Shown: positions 1,824 to 17,084 of the stretch, piece after piece | How the letters are laid out: each line of letters starts with the position of its first letter | Numbering within the stretch: position 1 is the first letter of the stretch | Assembly (NCBI GenBank): GCA_947446645.1 | Contig: CANFHA010000004.1 | Span: forward strand, 1-64,000 | Reading direction: 5' to 3' | Length of the DNA stretch: 64,000 nucleotides | From: Chitinophagaceae bacterium | GTDB taxonomy: Bacteria > Bacteroidota > Bacteroidia > Chitinophagales > Chitinophagaceae | Position numbers and translations under genes: made by a program | Notes under the pieces: generated by a model | What the model was told of the DNA's origin: nothing | Seen by the model: only the letters and a program-made list of their open reading frames with translations | Database searches by the model: none

Positions 1824-3899
1824 TTATTTGACTTTGTAACAATCTTCAACACTCGGTCTTTTATAACTGCCAAATAGATAACAAAACTCTCCTGAATTGG
1901 GGATGCCGAAATACTTAGATTGACAATGTTTATCTAATAATTCCGGCTCCTTTATCAGGCGCTTTTTCCAATTAGGCATATTGTCTGGACAATGGAAATC
2001 ATTAATCACTTCACTTGCTGGTTTGTTTATTAGTAGCATTAGCAAATCGCGCAAATAATCTTTATAATAGCCATCGGTGAAATTATTTTTCAAGTCACTT
2101 GTGTTTTCTATCAAACACCGTTTGTTTGCATCGGTATTGTAGCTCCACGTACCCCAGTAGGTATAGAAGTCGTTGCCTTTTATAGTCAATAAAGCACGGC
2201 GGAATTCATTTGTGACGTCTGATTCGTTTAGATATTGTTTGATTACTTTTTGTACTTCCGATAATATACCCGCATCAAATTGTTTCTTTGAATCTGAGAA
2301 ATCAATACAATGCAATGGGAAAGCTATTTCTCCCATACAAAAGTTCGTGTCCTCTGTTTGAAAAATGACGTGCCTGTTAGACGAATTAGCCTGTATAATT
2401 TTTGCCTTCAAAATTTCTTCAGAAACCTGCGTAGAAGCGAAGTTCGACTTTGGATTATTTCTGGAAAGATATTGATAGATATTTCCTATCCCGCTCGAAA
2501 TTTCCTTAAGTAATCCAATTGCGCCGATAAAGGATGTGGCACTATCAATCGTAGAATTGTGAACGATATTGCGCACCACTCGCATCCAGTCGGAAAATGT
2601 CGTTGACTCAAAATTCTCGTCTCCTATTGCTTGTGTTTGAGCGAAAAATAAGGCACGCTGTTTATAGGTGATTTCCTCTCCGTTTATGAACTCGGTAAAA
2701 ATTGTCGCTCCAGGAGTGCAATAATCCCAGAGCGGCAAGTTCTCCGGAAGTAATTCATCATTAAAGAACTTATTATCTCTTCTTACTGCGTATTTATCAA
2801 AACAAGTTTTCAAACAATCAAAGCCCTTTTTGCTCGGAAAGTCATGAGGCTCGATATTAGTTGGGGCGTTAACTAAATCGGATATTCTTCTCTCTATCCT
2901 TTCCCGCTTTATTGCCTCAATTGTGACTGGCTTACCTTTTGATTTTGCTGCGAGTTCATTCTTGACTATTTTGTCAGCTTCAAAGTCCTCATAAATTTCA
3001 AGGTTTTCGGCATAGTTACTAATTGCTATTCCAACGATAAAATTGAGCAGTTCTCTGTCAATTAAATTATCCGCATTTTTATACTTCCAAAACAAATCAG
3101 TCCAACAAGAATCTATTTTGTGAGAAAAATGAGCATTAAAACTCAGTCCGGCCTCCCAATTACATTCAATTATATACTGCTCGAATTTCGCCTTGAATTT
3201 TTCAAAATCAGTAAGCGCTTTCCCACGAGCATTCATTTTGATGTATAGATCATCCGAAAGACCAAAATGTTTTAGTGGGATATGAAGAAAGCTGATTCTG
3301 TTTCTTATTGTCAGTTCTTCCCAAATGTTACCCCTGCCGCCAAGGCGTTGGAATTTTTGATGAATTGCATCCAGCATAATCAGCATGGCTTCAATTGTTG
3401 GGTCTTTCTTCCACGAGAGAAAAAACCAAGAGCTGTCAATTAGACTTTTAGATAAGCTATTGTATAAAGGCTCCCCATTGGCATCATTATCAGAGTCCAA
3501 GAGCTTGTTGAAATCTATCCCATGCTCAACTAACTGATTGCAAAATTCACGTGAACTTGTTCGCGTTTCGTATGTGAACTTTTTAAGTGTCGCTTTATTT
3601 ACGTTTAGCAAGTTTTCTTTAGCAGCTATATACCAGTGTAATAAAAAAAGAGTTGTTAGCCGCTGCTGTCCGTCCAATGGCTGCAAGCAATTGTCTTGTT
3701 CATTCCCATAGATGAAGTCAAGCTCAATAATTTTCCCCTCCTCTATAGTACTTAACAAGGCATCCAAAAACTTGTTCCGTATCTCAAATCTATCCTTTCT
3801 ACCTTGCGCATAATCCCTTTGTATAATCGGGATTTCTATTCTCGATTTTTCAATTAATTGCCAAAAAGTCAACTTGTCAGCCAACGGATTGCTATTCAT
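1824..3899 (-). CDS. DUF262 domain protein (GmrS-like NTPase family)
   Basis: A 691-residue protein with the N-terminal DUF262 signatures IPIIQRDYAQGR (residues 24-34) and LDGQQRLTTLFLLHWY (around 75-90). DUF262 is the ParB-like nucleotide-hydrolysing domain of the GmrSD type IV restriction proteins and of several anti-phage proteins. No clear HNH motif is visible in its C-terminal part, unlike its partner. Its ATG overlaps the end of the upstream DUF262-DUF1524 gene by 8 bases, so the two are translationally coupled and probably form a complex. The likely role is sensing or cutting foreign or modified DNA, inferred from the family and the island setting. The substrate is unknown. Confidence 0.85.
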   Translation of the reverse strand: MNSNPLADKLTFWQLIEKSRIEIPIIQRDYAQGRKDRFEIRNKFLDALLSTIEEGKIIELDFIYGNEQDNCLQPLDGQQRLTTLFLLHWYIAAKENLLNVNKATLKKFTYETRTSSREFCNQLVEHGIDFNKLLDSDNDANGEPLYNSLSKSLIDSSWFFLSWKKDPTIEAMLIMLDAIHQKFQRLGGRGNIWEELTIRNRISFLHIPLKHFGLSDDLYIKMNARGKALTDFEKFKAKFEQYIIECNWEAGLSFNAHFSHKIDSCWTDLFWKYKNADNLIDRELLNFIVGIAISNYAENLEIYEDFEADKIVKNELAAKSKGKPVTIEAIKRERIERRISDLVNAPTNIEPHDFPSKKGFDCLKTCFDKYAVRRDNKFFNDELLPENLPLWDYCTPGATIFTEFINGEEITYKQRALFFAQTQAIGDENFESTTFSDWMRVVRNIVHNSTIDSATSFIGAIGLLKEISSGIGNIYQYLSRNNPKSNFASTQVSEEILKAKIIQANSSNRHVIFQTEDTNFCMGEIAFPLHCIDFSDSKKQFDAGILSEVQKVIKQYLNESDVTNEFRRALLTIKGNDFYTYWGTWSYNTDANKRCLIENTSDLKNNFTDGYYKDYLRDLLMLLINKPASEVINDFHCPDNMPNWKKRLIKEPELLDKHCQSKYFGIPNSGEFCYLFGSYKRPSVEDCYKVK

Positions 3900-5574
3900 T
3901 TTTTGATTTAATTTGACGTGGTAAATACGGTTTTAATGTTGTAATAATGTCTTTTATATAGGCACTTCTGTCAATCTTACCCCAAAAAGTCATTTGTGAA
4001 ACCTCATTGCTGTAAAATTTCATAAATACATTTTTAGTACATACAGGTATAAATGTTCCATTTTTGTCTCTTTCGATTATTGTCTTCCGCTTCACGGGGA
4101 ACACAGCATTTTTATAGCTCCGATTAGTTCCTGCATCCAGTAAAACAAGGTTCGAAATATCATTAATATCTTCGTGGATTTTAGATTCACTAAAGTGATC
4201 TAAGACTTCCGCATATACCCGTTCAAAATTTTCTTTTTGATATTCTGACATCCGTTTTCTCAATTCGTTGTCCTTGACAAAGAAGGACACTTCCTTTAAC
4301 CAGTCGTTTTGATGCGCTTCTGTAGTAGGCATGTCTTCCGCAACTGCCGCGATATGTTCGACATCCCAATTTTCCTTTTTGTATCGGTCAAAAGGGAAAC
4401 GATTAGTTTCATTTACATTGTTAAGCATGGTTTGAATATTGTGAAGTAACAAAACGTTTCTAATGAGGCCACTTCCATATTCTAAGTCGTTAACCTGGAC
4501 TTTCACCTTCTCTTTTATTTTGCTGTCTATTGATGCCTTTAGCTCTGTTTTAGAGAGTTCTTTTTTGAGTTTTACTATTTCTTTTATGTTTGTCCCTGTA
4601 GCTACTAAAAAGCCAATTTTGTGATATAATTCTCGATCAATAAACCACTCTTCTAAGACCTGATAATACTTTTTTATTTCTTGCCAATTTTCGACAATCT
4701 CGCTTTCTGTATATTGTTTAAACTTTTCGTTGAAATGCCTGAAGGTGAAAAAATCATCGGCATTTGAAGGCTTATTTGCTATCAAATCGAAAATGAACTC
4801 TATTCGTGTGGGCAGCGTATTTTTTTCCTTATTTAAAAAATACCAAAAAGCGTTGTTTTGTAGAGCGTATTCAATTTGGTCCCATTCGGACGCAATTTCC
4901 AATTGCTTCAGTTTAATTTTTTCGTTGTCTGAATTTCTAAAATTCGAGCTATTCAGGAACGATGCTTTTATCAACTCCGAATTTGTTAGAGGTATCTTGC
5001 CGCTATTTATACGTGTGAAAATATCTATAGAATCGTTGGTGGTTTCGTACCAGATCACCTTTGTAAAATGCAGGAACTTAGACTCGAACCCATTGGTGTC
5101 GAAATTCTGCCCTCTTTTTTCAAACCAAGCTGCAATATTTTTGTAGGCCGAGGATATGAAGTAATAGTCAATGTTTGAATCGTCAATTGCATCCTCAGTT
5201 AGATCCTTCAAATAACTCTCTGAGCCTGTCCTTGTTTCATATTGAAGAGCGAATAGTTTTTTTCTTCTATTCTCTGCACCTTGATTTAGATAGTGGAGTA
5301 TTAGGTAAATTGTAGTCAACCTTTGTTGCCCATCTATAACGTCCCATTTCCCATCATTCTCTTTCACGACAATTGGTTGCAAACAATACCACGTTTTATC
5401 ACTCAAACCTGTAATCTCTTTTGGTGAAAATTCTGCAATATCATTAAGAATGTCTTCTACCTGTTGCTTTGTCCAACGATACCCTCTCTGGTATGATGGG
5501 ATAAAGAAGCTGTATTGCAACAGATCGCCAATTGTTTTCGTCGTTAAAGGGATTTTATTTTCTACTATTGACAT
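3892..5574 (-). CDS. DUF262-DUF1524 (HNH) protein, GmrSD-like putative nuclease
   Basis: A 560-residue protein carrying both halves of a GmrSD-like enzyme. The DUF262 region has IPSYQRGYRW (25-34) and DGQQRLTTIY (81-90). The DUF1524 HNH-type nuclease region has WDVEHIA, with His407 as the likely catalytic histidine, and ISNLVLLDAGTNRSYKN ending near residue 488. GmrSD enzymes couple NTP hydrolysis to cleavage of modified DNA. Whether this one does is inference. The gene overlaps the exonuclease gene upstream by 20 bases and the second DUF262 gene downstream by 8 bases. Its partner lacks an obvious HNH part, so this protein may supply the cutting activity for the pair. Confidence 0.88.
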   Translation of the reverse strand: MSIVENKIPLTTKTIGDLLQYSFFIPSYQRGYRWTKQQVEDILNDIAEFSPKEITGLSDKTWYCLQPIVVKENDGKWDVIDGQQRLTTIYLILHYLNQGAENRRKKLFALQYETRTGSESYLKDLTEDAIDDSNIDYYFISSAYKNIAAWFEKRGQNFDTNGFESKFLHFTKVIWYETTNDSIDIFTRINSGKIPLTNSELIKASFLNSSNFRNSDNEKIKLKQLEIASEWDQIEYALQNNAFWYFLNKEKNTLPTRIEFIFDLIANKPSNADDFFTFRHFNEKFKQYTESEIVENWQEIKKYYQVLEEWFIDRELYHKIGFLVATGTNIKEIVKLKKELSKTELKASIDSKIKEKVKVQVNDLEYGSGLIRNVLLLHNIQTMLNNVNETNRFPFDRYKKENWDVEHIAAVAEDMPTTEAHQNDWLKEVSFFVKDNELRKRMSEYQKENFERVYAEVLDHFSESKIHEDINDISNLVLLDAGTNRSYKNAVFPVKRKTIIERDKNGTFIPVCTKNVFMKFYSNEVSQMTFWGKIDRSAYIKDIITTLKPYLPRQIKSKNE

Positions 5575-6052
5575 TGTTTTGTTTTAAATGCAACTGAAAT
5601 AGTTCTGCACATGCTAACGCATCGCTTAAGGCATCATGGTGATTAAGGTTAATGCTGTGCACTCTGCATAGCGAGGCCAAATTAGCACGAAAAATTTTAT
5701 ACGTACAGTGTCCAAAAAATGAAGGAACTTCTATGTCATAATACGCCAATGTTTGATTGAGGCATTGAAAGTCAAACGCAAAGCCATTGTGCGCAACTAC
5801 GTTTTGCCCAGTAATATATGGCTCAATTTGCTTCCAAATTCCATTGAAGGTTGGAGCATTTGCAGTGTGCTCAGGAGTAATGCCATGAATTTCAATGAAG
5901 TTATTCCAGTAGTAATTATTGGGTGGCTGTACCAAAAGAGACAGCCGCTCCGTAATAATTCCATTTTCCATGCGAACCAAGCCTACCTGACAAATACTCC
6001 AACGTTTGCCCTGCGCAGTTTCAAAATCAATGGCTGTAAAGGAGTTAATCAT
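5555..6052 (-). CDS. 3'-5' exonuclease, DEDDh (DnaQ-like) family
   Basis: A 165-residue single-domain exonuclease. Motif ExoI is TAIDFET (Asp9, Glu11), ExoII is VVAHNGFAFD (Asp94), and ExoIII is HHDALSDA (His139 and Asp144, H-x4-D). All four acidic residues and the histidine of the DEDDh class are therefore present. Small proteins of this type degrade single-stranded DNA or RNA 3' ends. The gene is tightly coupled in an operon with DUF262 nucleases, overlapping the next gene by 20 bases and starting 2 bases after the repeat-protein gene. That suggests it processes nucleic acid products in the same defence pathway rather than acting as a polymerase proofreading subunit. Confidence 0.9.
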   Translation of the reverse strand: MINSFTAIDFETAQGKRWSICQVGLVRMENGIITERLSLLVQPPNNYYWNNFIEIHGITPEHTANAPTFNGIWKQIEPYITGQNVVAHNGFAFDFQCLNQTLAYYDIEVPSFFGHCTYKIFRANLASLCRVHSINLNHHDALSDALACAELFQLHLKQNNVNSRK

Positions 6053-6054
6053 TT

Positions 6055-6357
6055 TTATGCGCTTCTTTCACTCAGTCTTTTACATTTCTTGTCATACGTC
6101 CTCAGCCAACTTCCCTCTTTTGTCGTGAAAGTTTGTCCGGCGGCAGTTCTTACCTCCTTGCCACTTGCTGACATTTCCGCAATTCTTTTGCAATGCTCAT
6201 CATAAGTCCGTATCCATGAACCTTCTTCGGTTACAAAAAAGTCGGAACCGATGCCCACTACCTCCTTATTAGAAGCGGACATTTCTGAGATTCTCTTGCT
6301 TTTCTCATCGTAAACTCTAATCCAAGAGCCTTCGTTTTGTACGTTTGAAATTGCCAT
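6055..6357 (-). CDS. small protein of three GSWIRTYD-type repeats, function unknown
   Basis: A 100-residue protein made almost entirely of three copies of a ~35-residue unit. The units begin EGSWIRVYDEKSKRISEMSA, EGSWIRTYDEHCKRIAEMSA and EGSWLRTYDKKCKRLSERSA, joined by linkers with KEV and a Gly/Phe pattern. The alternation suggests paired beta strands, as in a small propeller or solenoid, but no fold can be assigned by eye. There is no signal peptide and no catalytic motif. It lies 2 bases before the exonuclease gene and 56 bases after the AAA gene, inside the defence-like operon. Two of the three units have Cys where the first has Ser. A binding, sensor or inhibitor role is possible. No function is claimed. 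Confidence 0.75.
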   Translation of the reverse strand: MAISNVQNEGSWIRVYDEKSKRISEMSASNKEVVGIGSDFFVTEEGSWIRTYDEHCKRIAEMSASGKEVRTAAGQTFTTKEGSWLRTYDKKCKRLSERSA

Positions 6358-6413
6358 AATTCTATTTTATTTAATTTTTACTGCCTACTCTATACAGTTT
6401 TCGACATCCCTGT

Positions 6414-7553
6414 TTATTTTGAAGATATACATTTAAAACCAATGGGAGCATTTTTTATCTCCTGTTGAAAGTCTTTTTCCTCTTGATTATATATTGCCGT
6501 CAAGGACATCGGCTTATTAATAATGGTAGCAAACCCTAATTTCTCGGACAGCTTCTGCGCTTTTTCAATTTCCAGCTCCTTAAATTCATATTTAGCGATT
6601 AATCTTCCTTTGCGCATTAATGCCGAATCAACCTTTGATATGTCCGTATTAAACGAACATATTACCTGTATATTGAGACAGTCTGAAAGCAGTCCATCCG
6701 AAATATTCAGTAGTGCCGAAACAGGCGAACTGCCGTCTTTTTCCCGGTCAACAACGATATTTTCGGCATCTTCAATCACAAATACAGAATTTGGATTTTC
6801 GATTAGCACTGAAATCAAATCAGGATTAGTTATGGCACTTGCCATATTGGGAGGCAAGAAAATAACATCTTTTTTTAGTAGTGAAATAAGATACCTGATA
6901 TAGGAGGTCTTGCCAGTTCCTGGCTTGCCATGCAACAATACCAGCCCCTTATCATTTTTCTTTGACAGTCTCTTCAGAATTGTTTGATGAATTTCTGTAA
7001 AATCATCATTGTAGTTGTCGGTAATATTCAGCTTCGGTTTTGTTACCTCTAACGACTTAGTATCAATACCAAGTTTTGAAGACACTAAGAGAGAAATTTC
7101 GGGTTTTCTACGGGTTTTCTTTTCCCGAAACTTAACTACACCACTAATAATTTCTTCAACTTTTTCAATTGAGGTTTTACGAAAGAGGAACCTTACGGTA
7201 GATTGATTTGTATCGAAGTCAACAATTAAGTCTTCATCAAGGATATAGAAAATATCGTCAAGCTCGGCTTTCTTTCGGCTATCGAAATACCTTTTGTCGA
7301 AATGAAAGCCTTTTATGTCATTCTTATATGTCTCTATAAACCACCGATTGGCTTTTCTGCAATCAATATTTATTTCATTTATGAAGTTTGGAATGGTATT
7401 AAAATAAGCGAGAAACAAGGTGAATTCGTTTAGATAAGAACCATTCCGTTCTGCAAAAACTTCTGATATGTTCATTCTTGCGACTGGCTTTTCTAATTCA
7501 AATTCTCTTGCTTGTAACTCCTTAAAACATACAGTTTGTGATGCCATATACAT
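6414..7553 (-). CDS. AAA-family ATPase with unique N-terminal domain
   Basis: A 379-residue protein with an AAA module in its C-terminal half: Walker A GKPGTGKTS (209-217), Walker B VFVIEDAE (257-264), a sensor-1 Asn in CSFNTD (302), and MRKGRL giving arginine-finger candidates Arg314 and Arg317. The layout resembles BCS1-like and other small AAA ATPases. The N-terminal ~195 residues match nothing I recognise and may be the sensor or substrate domain. It is the first gene of the operon, with a TAnnTTTG box 14 bases upstream. It probably remodels or loads the nucleases encoded downstream (inference). An alternative ATG lies two codons in, at 7547. Confidence 0.85.
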   Translation of the reverse strand: MYMASQTVCFKELQAREFELEKPVARMNISEVFAERNGSYLNEFTLFLAYFNTIPNFINEINIDCRKANRWFIETYKNDIKGFHFDKRYFDSRKKAELDDIFYILDEDLIVDFDTNQSTVRFLFRKTSIEKVEEIISGVVKFREKKTRRKPEISLLVSSKLGIDTKSLEVTKPKLNITDNYNDDFTEIHQTILKRLSKKNDKGLVLLHGKPGTGKTSYIRYLISLLKKDVIFLPPNMASAITNPDLISVLIENPNSVFVIEDAENIVVDREKDGSSPVSALLNISDGLLSDCLNIQVICSFNTDISKVDSALMRKGRLIAKYEFKELEIEKAQKLSEKLGFATIINKPMSLTAIYNQEEKDFQQEIKNAPIGFKCISSK

Positions 7554-7849: not shown

Positions 7850-8980
7850 ATGATCACTCAATTTGGTAGCGGGGGAATTTCTTTGATATTTGACAAGTCG
7901 GCTTTTCAGATATTTAGTCGCGATGAAATGCACCTCTTATACAAATATTTCTGGATAAACATAACCCCTATTTTGATAATGGAAATACTCGGGGATCTTG
8001 CGAAAGAAAAGAAAGGTTTTGAAACCGATTCAAAAGTGGCCGAGTTCGCAAGCAAGCTTTGGGGGTTCAACTCCTCTGTGAATACGTTTTACCTTGACCT
8101 GATAGCTGCCGAACTTCAAGGGCAGGCAATTCCTTTTTATAAACCGTTGGTGGACACCGCGCAACCTGTTGAAATGTCAGATGGACAAATAGGTATTCGC
8201 ATTCATCCATCCGACGAACGGAATGCCCTTGACCGCTGGCAAGAGCAAAAGTTCCACAGTTGGGAGCATGTATTGTCAAAAGAATGGAGAGCAAATACGA
8301 AGGCACCGGAATTGCTGATAACATTGAAAGAGAAGATTAATCGGAGCAACCCCGGCGCAAGGAACCTCGTCGGGCAAAGGGAGATTTTAGCCGCGTTCGA
8401 CAGCTATGTAGAATTGAAACGGGACAGCAATGAACTACTGCAATTATTAATTGAACAATTTTCTATTACTACGGAAGTAGCCGGTGCCGCGTTTTATCGT
8501 TGGGAAACTGAAGGGAAGAAGCCCATCAGCGCATTCGCACCCTATTCCCTATTTTGCCTGCGGGCGAACTATTTTTTTCAGACCTGCCTTCAAAATGAAT
8601 TGATCGGCACCCGTCCGACCAACTTGTTGGATATGCAATACGTTTACTACCTCCCATTTTGTAGAGTTTTTGTTTCCAACGACAAGTTTCATGATTCAGT
8701 AGTACCTTATCTGATGACTGAAAAACAGAAGTATATCAAAGGGGCAGAATTAAAAGATGATTTAAAGAGAATTCTTTTGATGAAAAAGCAACTTACTGGA
8801 TCAGATTTAAGACGTATTGAAAATGAACCGCCAGAAAATCCCGACTCTGTTATGTACAGATTATGGAAGGATATGCTTTTGAATTGGTTACCCGGACGGA
8901 ACAACGTTGTAACGGACGATGAATTACGAATGGCAGATGAAATGATACGCAAAATGAGGCAAGCAAGACCTATCGAATAG
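7850..8980 (+). CDS. large PIN-like domain protein, putative ribonuclease
   Basis: A 376-residue protein of no family I can name. The start has SLIFDKSAFQ with Asp15 after a beta strand, followed by Glu45 in ILIMEILGDL. After a long helical insert come LLDMQYVYYLP (Asp261) and FCRVFVSNDKF (Asp278). Four acidic residues in this strand-helix order are the layout of PIN-type metal-dependent nucleases with a helical insertion, where an aspartate sits in a late 'F-V-S-x-D' strand. The fold is inferred from pattern, not proven. It is the only plus-strand gene between the two defence-like operons and lies just after repeat copy A. A near-consensus TAACTTTA box at 7839-7846 is very close to the ATG. 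Confidence 0.6.
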   Translation: MITQFGSGGISLIFDKSAFQIFSRDEMHLLYKYFWINITPILIMEILGDLAKEKKGFETDSKVAEFASKLWGFNSSVNTFYLDLIAAELQGQAIPFYKPLVDTAQPVEMSDGQIGIRIHPSDERNALDRWQEQKFHSWEHVLSKEWRANTKAPELLITLKEKINRSNPGARNLVGQREILAAFDSYVELKRDSNELLQLLIEQFSITTEVAGAAFYRWETEGKKPISAFAPYSLFCLRANYFFQTCLQNELIGTRPTNLLDMQYVYYLPFCRVFVSNDKFHDSVVPYLMTEKQKYIKGAELKDDLKRILLMKKQLTGSDLRRIENEPPENPDSVMYRLWKDMLLNWLPGRNNVVTDDELRMADEMIRKMRQARPIE

Positions 8981-9000: not shown

Positions 9001-9342
9001 TTAAGCGGTGCCCTTTACTTTCCAGATTTTCCAATCAAAAATGATAGTCACGAAAATAAAACTTGCAATGACATAGTCGATCAAATGCCACGTGGCTTTT
9101 TGAAACCAAAATTTTATGAACGGGTTAAAAAGTAATGCTGTTGCAATGGAGAAAATAAGAAATCCAAAGTTGCGCTTTTTATAATTTTTATACCCGAAAT
9201 AGATGAACGTAACCATTACCAGCCAGCGCAAAAGAATATAATAACTGTATTCCCGATCGGTTGACGCACCAATAATTAAGGCGGCCACAACCAATAATTT
9301 TAAAGCCAATGAAGAAGCCTGTTCGATATTGATATTTTTCAT
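9001..9342 (-). CDS. small multi-pass membrane protein (DUF6804-like)
   Basis: Starting at the ATG at 9342, this 113-residue protein has about four hydrophobic segments. It carries the pattern YSYYILLRWLV followed by ALLFNPFIKFW and WHLIDYVIASFIF, which recalls the DUF6804 family of short membrane proteins with unknown function. It is the last gene of the J-domain/WG/FGE operon, 23 bases after the FGE-like stop. The ATG was chosen over an upstream TTG. As the only membrane protein of the operon it could anchor the complex or act as a membrane effector (inference). Confidence 0.7.
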   Translation of the reverse strand: MKNINIEQASSLALKLLVVAALIIGASTDREYSYYILLRWLVMVTFIYFGYKNYKKRNFGFLIFSIATALLFNPFIKFWFQKATWHLIDYVIASFIFVTIIFDWKIWKVKGTA

Positions 9343-9365
9343 AATCAGGCGCAATTTGAACTAAG

Positions 9366-10229
9366 TCAATTAACACTATCACAAGCAAGTCGGAAGCCAA
9401 TGCAGTCTCCTCCGATGGGAGGATAGCAACTTCGCATTGTTAATGTAGATGTAATACCATTCTCCCAACGGTAGGTCCCACCTCTAACCACGGGATCTCC
9501 GCCATCAGTACATTTAGGATTTTCATTTCGCAATATTTGAGAATAATCTCGTCTAAATTTATCCGCGCACCATTCAGCAACATTTCCGCTCATGTCATAT
9601 ATCCCCAATTCATTTGGTTTTTTTGTTCCTACGGGCTGAATACTTGAGCAATTTCCCGCATACCATCCTACGTCGGCTAAATTATTACTTCCGCTATGTC
9701 TGTAATTATTACTTTTCACCCCGCCTCTTGCAGAATATTCCCACTCGGCCTCGGTAGGGAGGCGATACTTATTTCCAGTTCGTTCATTTAGCTCGGCGAT
9801 AAATCTATTGACAAGCTCCAGGCTAATATTTGTGATCGGCAAATTACCATCCGATGGCCGATTTTCAATTCCGCTCGATCTATTTTTAGCACCAACAATA
9901 TTCTTTATTTTAGACATAAAGCCATCGCGAATTCTAAATTTCTTATTTAATTCGCCTAAAGAAGCATCAGAACCGTTACCTATTATTTTATTCCATTCTC
10001 TTGTCGTAACAGGAAATTTTCCGATATAATAATCACTCAATTTTACGGAATGTGGAGGGTTTTCGATGTCACTATCGCTTCCCATATTAAAGTATCCACC
10101 TTGCACAAATACCATTTGAATTCCATGATTAACTAACTCAATTCCTGTCAGTAGCTTGTTAGTAATGGCTATTTGTTTCGAGACTTTTTCAAGGCCGGTA
10201 TTTATTTTAATTAGTTTATTGTCGTCCAT
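9366..10229 (-). CDS. formylglycine-generating-enzyme-like (SUMF1/FGE-sulfatase fold) protein, likely non-catalytic
   Basis: Residues 1-30 form a helix (GLEKVSKQIAITNKLL) that also begins the next two genes upstream. Residues 36-287 are an FGE-sulfatase (C-type-lectin-like) domain with VQGGYFNMGS, KFPVTTREW, YRLPTEAEWEYSARGG, GIYDMSGNVAEW, RGGTY and the terminal GFRLACD. The two active-site cysteines of true formylglycine-generating enzymes, which follow the RGGSY motif, are absent here. A sulfatase-activating role is therefore unlikely, and ligand or protein binding is more probable. An extra segment of about 35 residues is inserted between the EW of the N-terminal part and the PITNIS strand. 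It is part of a five-gene operon, 10 bases after the WG protein. Confidence 0.85.
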   Translation of the reverse strand: MDDNKLIKINTGLEKVSKQIAITNKLLTGIELVNHGIQMVFVQGGYFNMGSDSDIENPPHSVKLSDYYIGKFPVTTREWNKIIGNGSDASLGELNKKFRIRDGFMSKIKNIVGAKNRSSGIENRPSDGNLPITNISLELVNRFIAELNERTGNKYRLPTEAEWEYSARGGVKSNNYRHSGSNNLADVGWYAGNCSSIQPVGTKKPNELGIYDMSGNVAEWCADKFRRDYSQILRNENPKCTDGGDPVVRGGTYRWENGITSTLTMRSCYPPIGGDCIGFRLACDSVN

Positions 10230-10239
10230 TTTGCAAAAA

Positions 10240-11181
10240 TTAGTCGTCCCAATAATGTTGTCCTGCTTTATTAATATAACCTTTCCTATTGTTGTATTTT
10301 ACCAATGCCAACCCATGAAAAAAGTCTTCCACGCTGTCATAAACACATTGGATGACTTGTTTGCCAGTTTTATCAATAAAACCCCATTTGCCGTTTAGTT
10401 GTACAGCGGCTAACCCTTGTGAAAAATTACGCGCATAGTCAAAAATACATGGGATGATTACATTGTATTTTTTATCAACAAAACCAGATTTCATATTGGG
10501 AGGCAAGGCATAGCTTCTCAAACCTTCTCTAAAATGATATTCATTGGTGTTTTCTATCTGTACTTTCTTACCGGTAGCGTCAATAAAAAAATCCAATAGC
10601 GAATTTGAGAATTTCTCTGAATCATAACCCTCGCTATCGTCAGCCGTTTCTACCCAAGCAACCCCATTGAAAAAACCGGTTATTACGTCATCATAGAGAA
10701 AAGCTATTTTCTGGTTACCAGCTTTATCAATAAAACCGAACTTCCCATCACGTTGAACTGCTGCCAGTCCTTCTGAAAACAATGATGTTTCCCAAATAAA
10801 CCCATGATACCGACAAGGAATAATTTGTTTTCCTGTTGAATCTATATAACCCAATCTTGAATTTAATATTACCGCCGCAAGCCCCCCGGAAAACACCGAA
10901 ACTTGCGAATAAATATTTTGAATTAGCATTTTACCATCACTGTTAATAAAGCCCCACTTCCCATTTGATTTAACTGCTGCTAACCCTTCAGAAAATATAT
11001 TGGCGTCATCAAAAACGCATTCCAAAACAATTTTTTTCTCTGGATTACAAAATCCCCACTTGCTTTTTCTGCGATACGGTATCAATGGAGGATCATTAAA
11101 CTGTAAAAGTTTATTGACAATACCGATCTGTTTAGAAACTACTTCAAGACCCGATGTTACTTTTATCAGAGTGTTGCTCAT
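10240..11181 (-). CDS. WG-repeat protein with shared N-terminal helix (copy 1)
   Basis: A 313-residue protein. Residues 5-27 carry the helix GLEVVSKQIGIVNKLL, nearly identical to that of the FGE-like protein. From about residue 40, seven or eight WG repeats follow. Each has the form K-W-G-F-I-D, a Gly-Lys turn, I-I-P-C-x-Y-D, and F-S-E-G-L-A-A-V (for example GKWGFIDKTGKQVIQCVYD). One middle repeat is degenerate around residue 170-190. WG repeats build beta-rich, propeller-like binding surfaces and have no enzymatic activity of their own. The last repeat ends in HYWDD, echoed by QFWED in the neighbouring copy. It is 4 bases after that copy, so the two arose by duplication and are probably co-translated. 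Confidence 0.85.
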   Translation of the reverse strand: MSNTLIKVTSGLEVVSKQIGIVNKLLQFNDPPLIPYRRKSKWGFCNPEKKIVLECVFDDANIFSEGLAAVKSNGKWGFINSDGKMLIQNIYSQVSVFSGGLAAVILNSRLGYIDSTGKQIIPCRYHGFIWETSLFSEGLAAVQRDGKFGFIDKAGNQKIAFLYDDVITGFFNGVAWVETADDSEGYDSEKFSNSLLDFFIDATGKKVQIENTNEYHFREGLRSYALPPNMKSGFVDKKYNVIIPCIFDYARNFSQGLAAVQLNGKWGFIDKTGKQVIQCVYDSVEDFFHGLALVKYNNRKGYINKAGQHYWDD

Positions 11182-11185
11182 AAAA

Positions 11186-12322
11186 TTAATCCTCCCAAAA
11201 TTGAACGCCTTTTTTGTCTATATACCCCCAATTCCGATTAATTTTTACGTGTGATAATCCATTATTAAAATAATGGGCCCAATCGTAAATTAGAGGTATT
11301 ACTTGTTCTCCAGCTCTATTAATATACCCTCTCTTACCATTTAATTCAACTTCCGCCAATCCCTCACAAAAACTGCTGGCACTGTCAAAAATAAAATCTA
11401 TTAACTGCACCCCATTTTTATTTATGTATCCCATTTTTTTCTTTGACTGAACATTTACCACCCCATCAGAGAAGTCGCCTGCATAGTCATAAATACATTC
11501 AATTTTGCGGTCGTTTGATTGGGTGATAAAACCATATTTACCATTTAGTTGAATACTTGCTAAGCCCTCGGAAAATCTTCCATAGTCACCTGTCCGTGAT
11601 AGACTGGTAAACTCATCTTCGTCAACGCCGTAAACACAAGGAATAATCTCATTACCCCTTTTATCAATGAAGCCGACCGCATTTTTCAACCGGACTTTCG
11701 CAAGCCCTTCAGAAAAATTGCCAACATAATCATACTTGAATGGGATTATCTCTTCGCCAGCAGCATCAAGGAAACCGTATTTGCTATCGATTTTAGCAGA
11801 GAATAGTCCCTCGTTCATTGGCCCCAACGCATCATAGAGTAGTGGTATAATTTGATTTCCGTCTTTGTCAATGCATCCCCATTTATTGTTTAGTTTAACT
11901 CTCGCCAGCCCATTTGAAAAATCATGCGCATGTTCATACCTACATTGAACAACATGAACGCCTGTTTTATTTATGAAACCATGCTTACCATCAATTGCTA
12001 CCCGCGCTAATCCTTCTGAAAAGTTGCCTCGTGTTTCATATACGCAGGGCGTAATTATCTTGCCGTTTATATCAATGAAGCCTAATTTATTATCAAGCTT
12101 GATTGTGCCTATTCCTTCGAAAAAGGGAAAAGACGATTCATATATACAAGGAATTACTATTGCTTTGTCAGGTGAACAAAAACCCCATTTGTTTTTCTTA
12201 CGGTAGGGTATAAGGTCAGGTGTCGTCAAAAGAAGAAGCTTCTCGATCAAAGCTATTTGCTTCGTCACCCTCTCTAACGAGTTTTTTTGACTAATAAGGT
12301 GGGAAATTTGCTCTTCTGCCAT
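11186..12322 (-). CDS. WG-repeat protein with shared N-terminal helix (copy 2, ten repeats)
   Basis: A 378-residue protein. The N-terminal helix NSLERVTKQIALIEKLLLL matches those of the two downstream genes. It is followed by the linker LIPYRKKNKWGF, which is also shared with copy 1. Ten WG repeats of 33-38 residues fill the rest, with cores such as NKLGFIDINGKIITPCVYE and GKRGYINRAGEQVIPLIYD, each closed by F-x-E-G-L-A-x-V. One repeat carries a ~12-residue insertion (DEDEFTSLSRTGDY). No signal peptide or membrane segment is seen, so the protein is probably cytoplasmic. It lies 11 bases after the J-domain gene. It is most likely a recognition or scaffold subunit of the system (inference). Confidence 0.85.
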   Translation of the reverse strand: MAEEQISHLISQKNSLERVTKQIALIEKLLLLTTPDLIPYRKKNKWGFCSPDKAIVIPCIYESSFPFFEGIGTIKLDNKLGFIDINGKIITPCVYETRGNFSEGLARVAIDGKHGFINKTGVHVVQCRYEHAHDFSNGLARVKLNNKWGCIDKDGNQIIPLLYDALGPMNEGLFSAKIDSKYGFLDAAGEEIIPFKYDYVGNFSEGLAKVRLKNAVGFIDKRGNEIIPCVYGVDEDEFTSLSRTGDYGRFSEGLASIQLNGKYGFITQSNDRKIECIYDYAGDFSDGVVNVQSKKKMGYINKNGVQLIDFIFDSASSFCEGLAEVELNGKRGYINRAGEQVIPLIYDWAHYFNNGLSHVKINRNWGYIDKKGVQFWED

Positions 12323-12333
12323 CTGTTACTAAT

Positions 12334-13311
12334 TTATAATGCAATAATTTCCCTCTCCAGCCTTTCCAGTTCCCGGCTCAATTTTTCTTTTGTTTCCGAA
12401 AAATATGTATTCCAATCCTTTATAGCAGCAATAATTTGGTAGGTTTCGGCAGCTTTGATTTGGGCGATCTTTTCCTGTAGTTTCAATATAAGTGATCTGA
12501 GATTTTGAACTTCTTGTTTCAGAACCTGCTTTTCATTTAGGCTTTCATCCTTTTGCTTAAACGGTGTTCCAGTTATTAGATAGGCATATATTTCTCTTAA
12601 TGCTTCAAGATCATTATTGTTTTTTGCTTCTTTCGCTTTCATGAAGAGATTTCCAGCCTCTTTCTCAAATTTTTTGTCAACGCAATCGGGATGGGTTAAT
12701 TTACTAATCTTCCTAAACAGCGACTTTAATTCTTGTTCTTGTGCTTCGGTTAATAGATGCATGGGAGTTTTTTTCGTTGCTTCATACTCTCCTTTGTATT
12801 GTTGTTCCTCTTCTTTAGCATTTTCATAATCTTGCTTCGCAGCATCATCAAACGGCCTTTCTTTGGCTTTTTCTGCCGCTATTTTCTTCTTTATATCGAG
12901 AATTTTTAGGATTAAGCCGCCAAGTGCTTCAGAGTGTTTAACTTCAAATTCGTGAATTAATTTCTCTATATCACTTAATTCACTCTCAAGATTGCTTATC
13001 GTTGCGGTGAGCGACCGAACTTCTGTTTGTAATCCTTGTACTTCGGGATCTTGCCATTTAGTAATCGTGTTATATTTCTGTAGCAAGTCATTTAGCAGTC
13101 GCATTGCATCGCCGTATGCTTTGTTGTCAATATGCTTGACAAGAACGTCAATTTCAAGAGTTAACTGGTTTTCCGAAGCGGTTTCAAGTATTTTTTTAAG
13201 CTTGCCAGTTTGGTACTCAATATCATCACCATCTTGAATGGCTATGACGTTTTTAATAATTTCAAGTCGCTTAAGTAGCGGTACTATATCGGTAGTCTCT
13301 GTTCCAGACAT
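12334..13311 (-). CDS. coiled-coil protein with a C-terminal-half J domain
   Basis: A 325-residue protein that heads the five-gene operon. An N-terminal helix (LLKRLEIIKNVIAIQDGDD) loosely resembles that of the other operon members. Coiled coil runs from about residue 90 to 175. A J-domain-like segment spans about 190-245 with LFRKISKLTHPDC, in which His207-Pro208-Asp209 is the HPD motif that stimulates Hsp70 ATPase, and a following helix EAGNLFMKAKEAKNNNDLEALREI. A second coiled coil fills 255-320. J proteins deliver clients to Hsp70, so this one may recruit the host DnaK to the WG/FGE partners. That is inference, and no DnaK gene lies nearby. Confidence 0.75.
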   Translation of the reverse strand: MSGTETTDIVPLLKRLEIIKNVIAIQDGDDIEYQTGKLKKILETASENQLTLEIDVLVKHIDNKAYGDAMRLLNDLLQKYNTITKWQDPEVQGLQTEVRSLTATISNLESELSDIEKLIHEFEVKHSEALGGLILKILDIKKKIAAEKAKERPFDDAAKQDYENAKEEEQQYKGEYEATKKTPMHLLTEAQEQELKSLFRKISKLTHPDCVDKKFEKEAGNLFMKAKEAKNNNDLEALREIYAYLITGTPFKQKDESLNEKQVLKQEVQNLRSLILKLQEKIAQIKAAETYQIIAAIKDWNTYFSETKEKLSRELERLEREIIAL

Positions 13312-15145: not shown

Positions 15146-15424
15146 ATGTGGAAAAGGGAAGCAAAGAAGAATAGGAGGTTACCAAAGGAAATTGTACAGC
15201 CAAGAATTGAAATAGAAGACAAGATGCCATTATCAAAGTGTCGGCAGATACTGAAACAGATGGAGGTAAAATATACCGATGAAGAGATACTTCTTGTAAG
15301 GGATTGGCTCTATGATCTCGCGGCGATAACCTACGATGAATATTTTAATGACAAGGGGAATATTATACCACTAACGCAAAAACCAGACGATTATGAGGAA
15401 AGCAATTATTTACGTGCGAGTTAG
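15146..15424 (+). CDS. small protein coupled to the serine recombinase
   Basis: A 92-residue protein with a basic N-terminus (MWKREAKKNRRLPKE) and a helical body (MPLSKCRQILKQMEVKYTDEEILLVRDWLYDLA cannot be assigned to a family by eye; key residues are Cys35 and the DWLYDL helix). Its 3' end overlaps the recombinase start by 32 bases in another frame, so translation is probably coupled. Small genes in this position commonly accompany Bacteroidota serine recombinases. A role as a recombinase partner or directionality factor is possible but not shown. Confidence 0.65.
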   Translation: MWKREAKKNRRLPKEIVQPRIEIEDKMPLSKCRQILKQMEVKYTDEEILLVRDWLYDLAAITYDEYFNDKGNIIPLTQKPDDYEESNYLRAS

Positions 15425-17084
15425 TACAGACGAGCAAAGTGAGAAGGGGTACAGCCTCGCACATCAGGAAGAACGGCTAAGATTGTATTGCAAGCAACAC
15501 GACATAGAAGTAGCGGGTTTTTATAAAGAAGACCATTCAGCTAAGAGCTTTGACCGTCCGGCATTCGCACAGCTATTAACCTTCCTGAAGAAAAATAAGA
15601 AAGCTATTGATTTGCTATTATTTCTAAAGTGGGACAGGTTTAGCCGTAACGCCGGAGATGCCTACGGCATGATTAATCAGCTCAACAAACTTGGTGTAGA
15701 GCCGCAGGCAATCGAGCAGCCGCTGGACTTAAATGTACCCGAGAATAAGATCATGCTTGCCTTCTATCTTGCTGCACCGGAAGTAGAGAACGACCGCCGT
15801 TCCCTCAATGTAATAGCAGGTACTCGCAGAGCGATGAAAGAAGGGCGGTATTGCACGTGGGCTCCTATCGGTTATCGTAATATCCGAACAGAAGAAAACA
15901 AGCCAATTATTGTTCCGAGCAAAGACGCTCATTTAGTACGCTGGCTGTTTGAGGAAGTAGCCAAGCAGGAAAACAACGTGGTGGATATTTGGCGCATGGT
16001 GGTAACGAAAGGGCTAAAGGTCAGCAGAAGCAATACGTTTAACATGCTCCGCAATCCCATATACATGGGTAAGATTTTTCTGCCAGCTTATAAGGACGAA
16101 GAAGCTATGTTGGTTCGGGGCATACATGAGCCTGTCATTTCAGAAGGTCTTTTCTACATGGTGCAGGATATTTTGGATGGCCGGAAGCCTAAACATCCGT
16201 CAATACACACCGGAAAGGACGAACTGCCATTAAGAGGGTTTCTGATGTGCCGCAAGTGCGGGGCTAAACTGACAGGTAGTGCATCAAAAGGGCGTGGGGG
16301 CAGATACTTCTACTATCATTGTACCAGTTCTTGCGGTGAACGGTATCGGGCAGAAGAAGTAAATCAGCATTTCTTTACCGAACTGCAAAAGGCAGTTCCA
16401 AATGAAGAGGCTATCTGCTTTTTTGAACATATTGCAGCAGACTATTTTAGAAAAGTTGGGAAGGCAAAGTCAAACAACCTGCAAGCTGTTGACGAGGCAA
16501 TAGAGAAAACCCGTGCGAGAATAACCAATGCTTTACGGCGAATGTCGGACGAGGAAATCACTCCTGCCGATTACAGGGATATAAAAAATCTATATGAGCC
16601 TGAAATAGAGAAACTGATAAAAAGGAAACAAGAGATAAAGCTGGTTGATGATAACCTTGTAAGGTATATAAACGTAGTAACGACGGGGCTTAGAAGGCTG
16701 CCTGTATATTATCAGACGGCATCATTATCTACAAAGCAGCGGATTATTAGTTCGATGTACCCTGAAAAGTTGGTTTATGAAAATAAAAGTTATCGAACCC
16801 CGGCAATAAATGAAGCCGTGCGCATAATAAGCAAGCCAGACGGGGTTTTCAGCGAGGTAAAAGAAGAACAGGTCTCCGAAAATGGAGACCTGTCTAAATG
16901 GGTAGTCCGACCTGGATTCGAACCAAGACAAACAGAGTCAGAGTCTGTTGTGCTACCGTTACACAATCGGACTGATTGTGATAAAAAAAGCTGCCCAAAA
17001 AGCTGCTTTTGTAGTTCCATCTGGATTCGAACCAGAACAAACAGAACCAAAATCTGTTGTGCTACCGTTACACCATGGAACTAA
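15393..17084 (+). CDS. large serine recombinase whose 3' end runs through tRNA-Gln genes
   Basis: A serine resolvase/invertase-family integrase. The catalytic domain covers about 1-150, with YVRVSTDEQ (nucleophile Ser10) and LKWDRFSRN. A recombinase domain follows, and then a zinc ribbon with CRKCG and a later pair of Cys (HCTSSC), and a coiled-coil region. The recognisable protein ends near residue 490. Beyond that the frame reads antisense through a hairpin at 16868-16893, then tRNA-Gln(CUG) (peptide VVRPGFEPRQT) and tRNA-Gln(UUG). This shows that the element was inserted at the tRNA 3' end and its own stop was lost or replaced. The 563-residue length is therefore probably inflated, and the last ~70 residues are not native recombinase sequence. 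Confidence 0.9.
   Translation: MRKAIIYVRVSTDEQSEKGYSLAHQEERLRLYCKQHDIEVAGFYKEDHSAKSFDRPAFAQLLTFLKKNKKAIDLLLFLKWDRFSRNAGDAYGMINQLNKLGVEPQAIEQPLDLNVPENKIMLAFYLAAPEVENDRRSLNVIAGTRRAMKEGRYCTWAPIGYRNIRTEENKPIIVPSKDAHLVRWLFEEVAKQENNVVDIWRMVVTKGLKVSRSNTFNMLRNPIYMGKIFLPAYKDEEAMLVRGIHEPVISEGLFYMVQDILDGRKPKHPSIHTGKDELPLRGFLMCRKCGAKLTGSASKGRGGRYFYYHCTSSCGERYRAEEVNQHFFTELQKAVPNEEAICFFEHIAADYFRKVGKAKSNNLQAVDEAIEKTRARITNALRRMSDEEITPADYRDIKNLYEPEIEKLIKRKQEIKLVDDNLVRYINVVTTGLRRLPVYYQTASLSTKQRIISSMYPEKLVYENKSYRTPAINEAVRIISKPDGVFSEVKEEQVSENGDLSKWVVRPGFEPRQTESESVVLPLHNRTDCDKKSCPKSCFCSSIWIRTRTNRTKICCATVTPWN
16859..16893 (-). terminator. terminator of the tRNA-Gln transcript
   Basis: A perfect 10-bp stem (ACAGGTCTCC and GGAGACCTGT, 6-base loop) is followed on the minus strand by TCTTCTTTT. 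It lies 10 bases past the tRNA-Gln(CUG) 3' end and inside the recombinase reading frame. Confidence 0.7.
16903..16973 (-). tRNA. tRNA-Gln (anticodon CUG)
   Basis: A 71-base tRNA on the minus strand. The 7-bp acceptor stem is AGTCCGA/TCGGACT with discriminator A. The D arm has GTAACGGTAGC. The anticodon stem ACAGA/TCTGT holds loop CTCTGAC, which gives anticodon CUG, and the T arm contains GGTTCGAATCC. CCA is not encoded. Its 3' end faces the accessory island, as expected for an integration target. Confidence 0.93.
17012..17082 (-). tRNA. tRNA-Gln (anticodon UUG)
   Basis: A 71-base tRNA on the minus strand with acceptor AGTTCCA/TGGAACT, D arm GTAACGGTAGC, anticodon stem ACAGA/TCTGT with loop TTTTGGT (anticodon UUG), and T arm GGTTCGAATCC. 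It is 38 bases upstream of tRNA-Gln(CUG) and very similar to it in the D and T arms, so the two form one duplicated transcription unit. Confidence 0.93.

Follow-up and report, generated by a model that had tools for sequence, protein, structure and literature searches.

What holds together five closely spaced genes in a Chitinophagaceae genome, three of which begin with nearly the same short helix, is the question raised by this locus. The genes lie in the window, which here means the whole 64,000-nucleotide stretch of DNA that was analysed. The cluster appears to encode a modular system for alarm or defence that has so far gone undescribed. With modest confidence, and from sequence comparison, we read the operon as a variant of a modular sensor system in which the helix would dock interchangeable sensors on a J-domain hub that is often fused to a nuclease.

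All five ORFs named in the first-pass annotation are present on the minus strand. They are arranged in the order J-domain coiled-coil protein (J-CC; 12334..13311), WG-repeat protein 1 (WG1; 11186..12322), WG-repeat protein 2 (WG2; 10240..11181), an FGE-like protein of the FGE-sulfatase family (9366..10229), and a small DUF6804 membrane protein (9001..9354), with intergenic gaps of 11, 4, 10, and 11 bases; the last gap, between the FGE-like and DUF6804 genes, is 23 bases if DUF6804 starts at an internal ATG. These genes were assigned from ORFs and Pfam, which gave WG repeats in WG1 and WG2 (E 2e-89 and 8e-66), FGE-sulfatase in the FGE-like protein (E 5e-42), and DUF6804 in the membrane protein (E 1e-21). 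A helix profile placed a docking-type helix at the N-termini of WG1 (12224..12304), WG2 (11092..11175), and the FGE-like protein (10137..10220), all on the minus strand. By eye, the FGE-like protein has no cysteine pair at what we take to be the catalytic position of formylglycine-generating enzyme. The idea that it is the target of a diversity-generating retroelement was discarded, as the assembly (98% complete) contains no RVT_1 match.

The operon lies in an island edged by a tyrosine integrase (375-1580) and a serine recombinase (15393-17084). The island also holds two GmrSD_N genes, one RNase_T gene, and one AAA gene (Pfam), in agreement with the earlier description of a recombinase-flanked island with nuclease genes. 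The AAA gene (6414-7553) is separated from the operon by an opposite-strand gene. No PADLOC model matches the five operon proteins. The operon was compared with other J-CC loci, 45 in all including its own, for which ORFs, distances, and fold labels were assigned by us. The total may be 44, as L095 and L131, both at contig ends in the same genome, could be two parts of a single locus. The proposal that the five genes co-occur as a unit was not borne out, the exact set being seen at none of the 44 other loci. The recurring unit elsewhere is J-CC with at least one helix-tagged protein, accompanied in some cases by DUF6804; five other genomes have a DUF6804 gene no more than about 8 kb from J-CC.

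The window J-CC consists of N-terminal helices, a long coiled-coil hairpin, a J domain, and C-terminal helices. Its HPD motif (residues 207-209), which in J-domain proteins sits between helices II and III, is flanked by helices in an AF2 model with pTM 0.48. Pfam DnaJ matches it at E 1.8e-4 and 22 bits, under the gathering cut-off of 27.8, and a Foldseek search with the model returned no match at E≤0.001. HPD is kept in 44 of 46 J-CC pieces, and the remaining two pieces are broken. The window protein has no PLD domain. An N-terminal PLD-length region is present on J-CC at 26 of the 45 loci, and the PLD motifs HKD and GSxN/TGS are present in 22 of these regions and absent in four. Both this fusion and the TerY-P link described below are seen at other loci, outside the window. 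J-CC scores above 100 bits in 19 of 396 class genomes, counting the best candidates (at most five per genome); the refined-helix class scan covered the same 396 genomes, judged from listed genome labels. Some matches were set aside. Two plasmid records (Enterobacter and Salmonella) show similarity in the J region only and have unrelated neighbours, while four phage-collection records resembling the PLD form show similarity confined to the PLD region. Class-sample matches below 100 bits and phylum matches at 53-92 bits (L123-L130), for which no helix partner was found, were left out of the counts.

The helix is about 25 residues long and amphipathic, with a consensus near LI-x(5-6)-L-x-K/R-V-x-N-x-I-x-I-T-N-K-L-L. 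In the AF2 model of WG1, it occupies residues 2-30 at pLDDT 41-71 and is followed by a short linker and a beta-rich body mostly above 90. The refined helix profile was built from 27 sequences, 26 of them from J-CC loci. Of 654 ORFs encoded at these loci, it matches 29, training sequences accounting for 27, and six ORFs of later-fetched loci are matched as well at E≤0.01. One hundred column-shuffled profiles matched none of the 654 ORFs, and 100 shuffles preserving the hydrophobic pattern matched a mean of 0.05 ORFs (maximum 2), none of them outside the family. Judged by these shuffles, the near-identical helix on the FGE-like protein, WG1, and WG2 is specific beyond general composition. The weaker version claimed for the J-domain protein was not recovered: profile-profile comparison (hhalign) with seven J-CC N-termini gave a probability of 0.2, and the helix-profile matches include no J-CC protein.

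The helix is linked to J-CC in the genome. A helix-tagged protein lies near J-CC at 29 of the 45 loci (26 at E≤0.05), and a genome-wide search of 26 J-CC genomes with the first helix profile gave 26 matches at E≤0.01, 25 of them adjoining the J-CC gene. Among 831 N-termini from 44 J-CC loci and 14 other loci, 31 match at E≤0.001, 30 of these on J-CC loci; the scan leaves out L087 (too short), whose three helices score E <2e-9 separately. Of 38 candidate partners (E≤1.5), 25 either overlap the J-CC gene or are separated from it by at most 30 nt. The first helix profile comprised 11 sequences, and ten matched genomes are absent from it (G174, G276, G252, G333, G103, G191, G113, G323, G012, and G305). 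At E≤0.001 it matched 7 of 18 J-CC class genomes (G000 excluded, the profile containing no sequences from the 18) versus 1 of 160 genomes without strong J-CC (Fisher p 2e-7), the 160 being hand-listed from those with a weak J-domain match and the lone match being G474, which was added knowingly from an earlier refined-profile match. At E≤0.01 the counts were 9 of 18 versus 5 of 160 (p 2e-7). With the refined profile, 11 of 12 matched genomes carry J-CC (Fisher p 1e-15), an overlap that is largely by construction because 11 of the 12 supplied profile sequences. The informative linkage evidence is the single refined-profile match, G474, in 377 genomes without strong J-CC, together with the first-profile tests and the later-fetched loci.

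The tagged proteins span nine Pfam families (about six folds) and a W repeat not listed in Pfam; most W repeats, and the LRR in L014, L015, and L081, were read by eye. There are three tagged proteins in the window operon, three in L087, and four candidates in L167, and many loci have one. At four loci, an adjacent LRR or TPR protein has no scored helix; helices at L094, L133, and L166 are weak (E 0.25-1.2), and five loci have no clear partner of J-CC. Helix identity is 0.51 between differently folded proteins within an operon (10 pairs from 5 operons, 2 of the 10 involving an L087 protein of unknown fold that was counted as different) versus 0.40 between proteins that share a fold but come from different operons (88 pairs; permutation p 0.008). 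The helix sequence goes with the operon more than with the attached fold. Between loci, helix similarity correlates with that of the coiled coils of J-CC (rho 0.22; p 0.03 and 0.04 in Mantel tests) and not with that of the J domain (rho 0.01, p 0.43), with rho 0.16 for both the whole J-CC (p 0.09) and its N-terminal part (p 0.10), all of these being weak values from five tests with uncorrected p. One helix on nine families, nearly always beside J-CC, rare in genomes lacking J-CC, and following the operon, gives good comparative support to the swapped docking module that the first-pass annotation had suggested.

At 7 of the 45 loci, a TerY-P-like triad replaces the tagged sensors, and no scored helix is present at these seven. 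The PADLOC models TerY, PP2C, and STK_OB match at L091 and L097 and TerY alone at L017, with TerY E-values from 6e-48 to 6e-59 at these three loci; the remaining four triads were identified by eye. Class B vWA N-termini that resemble the helix by eye (L017 and L169) are not claimed, because they score E 8.5 and 33. According to the available text of PMC11090510, TerY-P has been described in tellurite resistance and hypothesised to be a metal-sensing switch, and OB-fold TerY-P modules have been reported as antiphage systems; J-CC paired with TerY-P was not found in that text. J-CC was also found on three viral contigs. Judged from gene content, the PLD fusion, the TerY-P-like partners, and the viral contigs favour immunity, which we regard as more probable than not. 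Among 112 neighbour proteins, hand-picked from 208 passing the filter with the window and TerY-P loci left out, PADLOC recognises established systems, AbiE and type II restriction-modification among them, and no enrichment is claimed. By eye, many J-CC loci lie among ordinary genes.

In the mechanism we propose, J-CC would be the constant hub, and each sensor would bring its own N-terminal helix of about 25 residues. The helix would dock, with the coiled-coil arms of J-CC as the most probable site, and sensors of different folds would therefore be swappable. The trigger would be either target binding by a sensor or a disturbance of that sensor. Cellular DnaK may then be recruited through the HPD motif of the J domain, the complex would be remodelled, and remodelling would release or activate an output, presumably for use against phages or other invaders. 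At 22 of the 45 loci, the predicted output is the motif-bearing PLD nuclease fused to J-CC. The window output would have to act in trans, because the window J-CC lacks PLD; candidates are the DUF6804 membrane protein and the neighbouring nucleases. More tentatively, and possible rather than probable, the family may be a chaperone-centred immune platform. Through a single docking helix, a J protein dedicated to this task, and in many cases itself a nuclease, would accept interchangeable sensors from nine Pfam families (about six folds), with Hsp70 remodelling as trigger and no NTPase core of its own. Lineages would shift detection by acquiring, next to the hub gene, another repeat protein that carries the helix.

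Other explanations were weighed. The first-pass annotation itself had named likeness through common heptad composition alone, and a helix so short (about 25 residues) and amphipathic invites that suspicion. This is extremely improbable and is rejected because of the shuffle controls, whose pattern-preserving versions match no non-family ORF, and the first-profile genome comparison with its strong J-CC linkage; later-fetched loci were found as well. A general stress-signalling switch, with sensors reporting cell damage and J-CC integrating the reports, as has been proposed for Ter stress modules, would fit the triads found in place of tagged sensors at seven loci and the tie of TerY-P to tellurite resistance and hypothesised metal sensing (PMC11090510, available text). 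We consider it unlikely, since the patchy distribution (above 100 bits in 19 of 396 class genomes), the viral contigs, and the variable sensors suit conflict better, and OB-fold TerY-P modules act as antiphage systems according to the same text.

Two further readings seem to us quite unlikely. The helix could be a homotypic adaptor as in effector-associated domain (EAD) systems, sensor helices binding each other and a related core helix in a multimer. Operons with several tagged proteins (the window operon, L087, and L167) would suit this, and it is in this way that exchangeable domains are linked to the core in EAD systems (PMC7159879, available text). However, no helix copy was found on J-CC, many loci have a single tagged protein, and tagged partners are also present where J-CC lacks its N-terminal part (L020 and L090). 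Alternatively, the helix could be a client tag by which DnaK and J-CC fold difficult repeat proteins, with no alarm involved. The J domain does carry HPD and the putative clients are mostly repeat proteins, but a plain chaperone would not be expected to have a PLD-length region, as J-CC does at 26 of 45 loci, or TerY-P-like partners, as at seven, and the other WG genes of the window genome are not among its significant helix matches.

The sensor system that we favour resembles several known systems. The available text of Kaur et al. 2020 (PMC7159879) describes EAD-coupled conflict systems, in which adaptor copies connect exchangeable domains with a core. As here, one small module without catalytic activity recurs on many different domains encoded by adjacent genes, copies that are neighbours are alike, and superstructure-forming repeats and FGE-type domains take part. 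For the docking-type helix, copies indeed lie on diverse domains in adjacent genes and are more alike within operons, the latter in a small sample (10 pairs in 5 operons). EAD systems differ in carrying an adaptor copy on the core as well, where none was found on J-CC, and in having NTPase or GTPase cores in place of the J-domain coiled coil of these loci. The docking module also differs, consisting of a single helix of about 25 residues. None of the five operon proteins was identified by Pfam as an NTPase, GTPase, or ternary core. The same text describes predicted GAP1-N2 conflict systems that join DnaJ and HSP70, share with J-CC loci a J domain and repeat proteins, and include group members that link kinase, PP2C, and vWA. 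They differ in being based on a GTPase, in encoding HSP70 and GrpE themselves, and in having a protein with FNIII repeats, and the available text mentions neither a PLD-J fusion nor a common docking helix; no Pfam match to GTPase, HSP70, or GrpE occurs among the window's five proteins. TerY-P triads consist of vWA, PP2C, and kinase, none of which is among the five window genes. In bNACHT25, host DnaJ is needed for phage sensing and HPD changes abolish it (PMC12169576, available text); there a housekeeping DnaJ serves a NACHT defence protein, whereas here a dedicated J protein is encoded within the operon. J-CC has the J domain with HPD in common with the DnaJ (Hsp40) family, but in J-CC the J domain alone is recognised, under the Pfam cut-off and inside a coiled coil.

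If our reading is true, J-CC would be a new hub type for conflict systems of bacteria, with the NTPase core replaced by a co-chaperone of Hsp70 that often carries a nuclease. It would join TerY-P-like signalling, DUF6804, WG, FGE-like proteins, and the unlisted W repeat in one testable system. The first profile found partners in genomes outside its build and few elsewhere, and therefore the sensors can be collected and their targets tested. A one-helix docking rule would then predict new components from sequence alone.

Five consecutive minus-strand ORFs run from 13311 to 9001 in the window, separated by 4-11 bases (23 if an internal ATG starts the last gene), in agreement with the five-gene operon of the first-pass annotation. 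Pfam assigned them to DnaJ (22 bits, below cut-off), WG repeats (two ORFs), FGE-sulfatase and DUF6804. The first gene encodes J-CC, a coiled-coil protein around a J domain and putative hub. From the N-terminus onwards, its AF2 model (pLDDT 83, pTM 0.48) comprises four helices, an extended coiled-coil hairpin, the J domain and further helices at the C-terminus. PADLOC matched none of the five proteins. The recombinase-flanked island beside nuclease genes was also located: a tyrosine integrase (375-1580) and a serine recombinase (15393-17084) enclose two GmrSD_N genes, an RNase_T exonuclease and an AAA gene, predicted by Pfam. The latter genes, with the GmrSD_N pair adjacent, occupy 1824-7553 and possibly form a separate defence system within the same island. 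A plus-strand ORF of 376 residues (7850-8980) that matched no Pfam family separates the AAA gene from the operon. At its 3' end the serine recombinase ORF overlaps two minus-strand tRNA-Gln genes (16901-17082), suggestive of integration into a tRNA-Gln locus.

J-CC relatives were found in 9 of 99 related genomes, including the window's own and one weak match. The relative, class, phylum and order samples overlap. Among 396 class genomes, 240 matched at E<=0.001 and only 19 exceeded 100 bits; we take the matches below 100 bits to be ordinary J domains, since those listed align near the J region with scores of only about 22-53 bits. A total of 21 of 392 phylum genomes matched at E<=1e-12 (4 of these above 100 bits), and 16 of 396 order genomes at E<=1e-20. 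With one named MAG locus (L011, 55% identity) and three viral contigs added, 45 J-CC loci were compared, of which L095 and L131 may be halves of one locus. The HPD motif is present in 44 of 46 J-CC pieces, and the remaining two are fragments that lack the J region. At 26 of the 45 loci, J-CC carries an N-terminal region of the length of a PLD nuclease domain, 22 of which contain HxKx4D plus GSxN or TGS motifs; Pfam, run on L015 only, identified PLDc_2 there (E 3e-22). The four regions without these motifs (L092, L170, L171 and L172) are perhaps inactive nuclease forms. The other 19 loci, including the window, encode J-CC without this region. J-CC is interrupted by a stop in L165:406-1326, and in L131:6347-7282, at the end of a contig, it is shortened close to a transposase-like ORF, so the system may be decaying in some genomes. 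Another coiled-coil J protein family (L123-L126, from G597, G635, G752 and G639; 85-92 bits to the J-CC profile) adjoins a gene resembling MutS by eye in one genus; the helix profile found no helix partners at these loci.

The central observation of the annotation, one N-terminal helix (here about 25 residues) on unrelated folds, holds and extends well beyond the window. In 26 whole J-CC genomes, an 11-sequence helix profile gave 26 matches at E<=0.01, and ten of the genomes matched had not contributed to the profile. All but one of the matches (25) adjoin a J-CC gene; the odd one out is an LRR-like gene of G091, at the end of a contig. The remaining WG genes of the window genome showed no significant match in a whole-genome search. 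The helix is attached to nine Pfam families (WG, FGE, Fib_succ_major, PQQ, receiver, LRR, TPR, WD40 and GyrA_C). By our count they represent about six folds: WG, WD40, PQQ and GyrA_C are, or could be, propellers, and FGE may have its fold in common with Fib_succ_major. Foldseek with the WG1 AF2 model, in which the helix is loose, retrieved beta-propellers (best E 2e-9) with low TM-scores of about 0.2-0.5. Helix-tagged partners at L012, L084, L094, L095, L166 and L167 share a W-rich tandem repeat, W..LS.N..LPWS..LIEKY..KW (L012:7062-8495; L084:5975-7294; L095:708-2048; L167:1746-2975 and 4043-5308). No Pfam family matched the three copies scanned (L012, L084 and L167:4046-5308), and the repeat is possibly an undescribed family.

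Shuffled helix profiles gave zero non-family matches, which speaks against chance likeness of heptads. The 11-sequence profile matched 9 of 18 J-CC class genomes (G000, the window's own, left out) versus 5 of 160 without strong J-CC at E<=0.01, and 7 of 18 versus 1 of 160 at E<=0.001 (Fisher p 2e-7 for both); four of the five control matches, as listed, are short or interrupted frames (20-48 residues, or containing a stop). At E<=0.001, a refined 27-sequence profile matched 12 of the 396 class genomes. Eleven belong to the 19 strong J-CC genomes, largely by construction because these eleven supplied profile sequences. The informative part is the single outside match, a 68-residue ORF of G474 (L176), apparently a relic, which to the eye is similar to the beginning of the L088 LRR partners. 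Among the eight strong J-CC genomes that the refined profile did not match are four loci of the vWA, PP2C and kinase triad TerY-P (L091, L093, L097 and L098). Mean helix identity was 0.54 within one operon and fold (6 pairs) and 0.51 within one operon across folds (10 pairs, 5 operons); between operons it was 0.40 for the same fold (88 pairs) and 0.39 for different folds (599 pairs). The difference between 0.51 and 0.40 gave a permutation p of 0.008. Across 27 loci, in five tests with uncorrected p values, helix similarity weakly followed both coiled coils of J-CC (rho 0.22 for each; p 0.03 and 0.04) and did not follow the J domain (rho 0.01, p 0.43); rho was 0.16 for the whole J-CC (p 0.09) and 0.16 for the N-terminal part (p 0.10). 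This co-variation, though weak, would fit docking on the J-CC coiled coils.

Helix-tagged neighbours (E<=0.05) occur at 26 of the 45 loci, with weaker candidates (E 0.25-1.2) at three more (L094, L133 and L166). At L134, L168, L172 and L173, J-CC adjoins an LRR or TPR protein in which no helix was scored. Genes for vWA, PP2C and kinase-like proteins lie at seven loci (L017, L091, L093, L097, L098, L169 and L174), matched by PADLOC for L091, L097 and the vWA of L017 and otherwise called by eye. Helix-less FGE genes lie upstream of the PLD-J-CC fusion and TerY-P-like genes at L017:7991-8821 and L169:3-857; FGE thus recurs with the hub in another form. Five loci have no clear partner: L018, which stops at a contig edge and carries a helix match (E 0.002), L082, L096, the incomplete L131, and L175, with an 85-residue TPR-like ORF. 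DUF6804 was present in 13 of 36 J-CC genomes tested versus 4 of 36 relatives in which J-CC had no match (Fisher p 0.025), a comparison unmatched for kinship, with controls mostly from the genus and family of the window. In 6 of the 13 (G000, G078, G091, G220, G236 and G887), DUF6804 and J-CC are no more than about 8 kb apart.

Among 112 hand-picked neighbour proteins, analyzed with no control set, PADLOC matched AbiE, type II restriction-modification and several candidate systems. On viral contigs, by eye, J-CC and a TPR partner lie beside lysis- and tail-like genes (L133), and other copies near an integrase (L132) and a muramidase-like gene (L134). Among openly licensed PMC papers, covered mostly by listing, no description of J-CC, of its fusion to PLD or of the helix was found. 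Related papers treat the effector-associated domain principle together with GAP1-N2 systems that include HSP70 and DnaJ (PMC7159879), and CoCoNuTs and TerY-P (PMC11090510); further literature includes PMC8195603 and PMC12169576. Judged from sequence, the helix probably serves in docking, and an immune role of the J-CC system is held with moderate confidence. The shared helix of the window operon is the visible edge of a broader modular arrangement.
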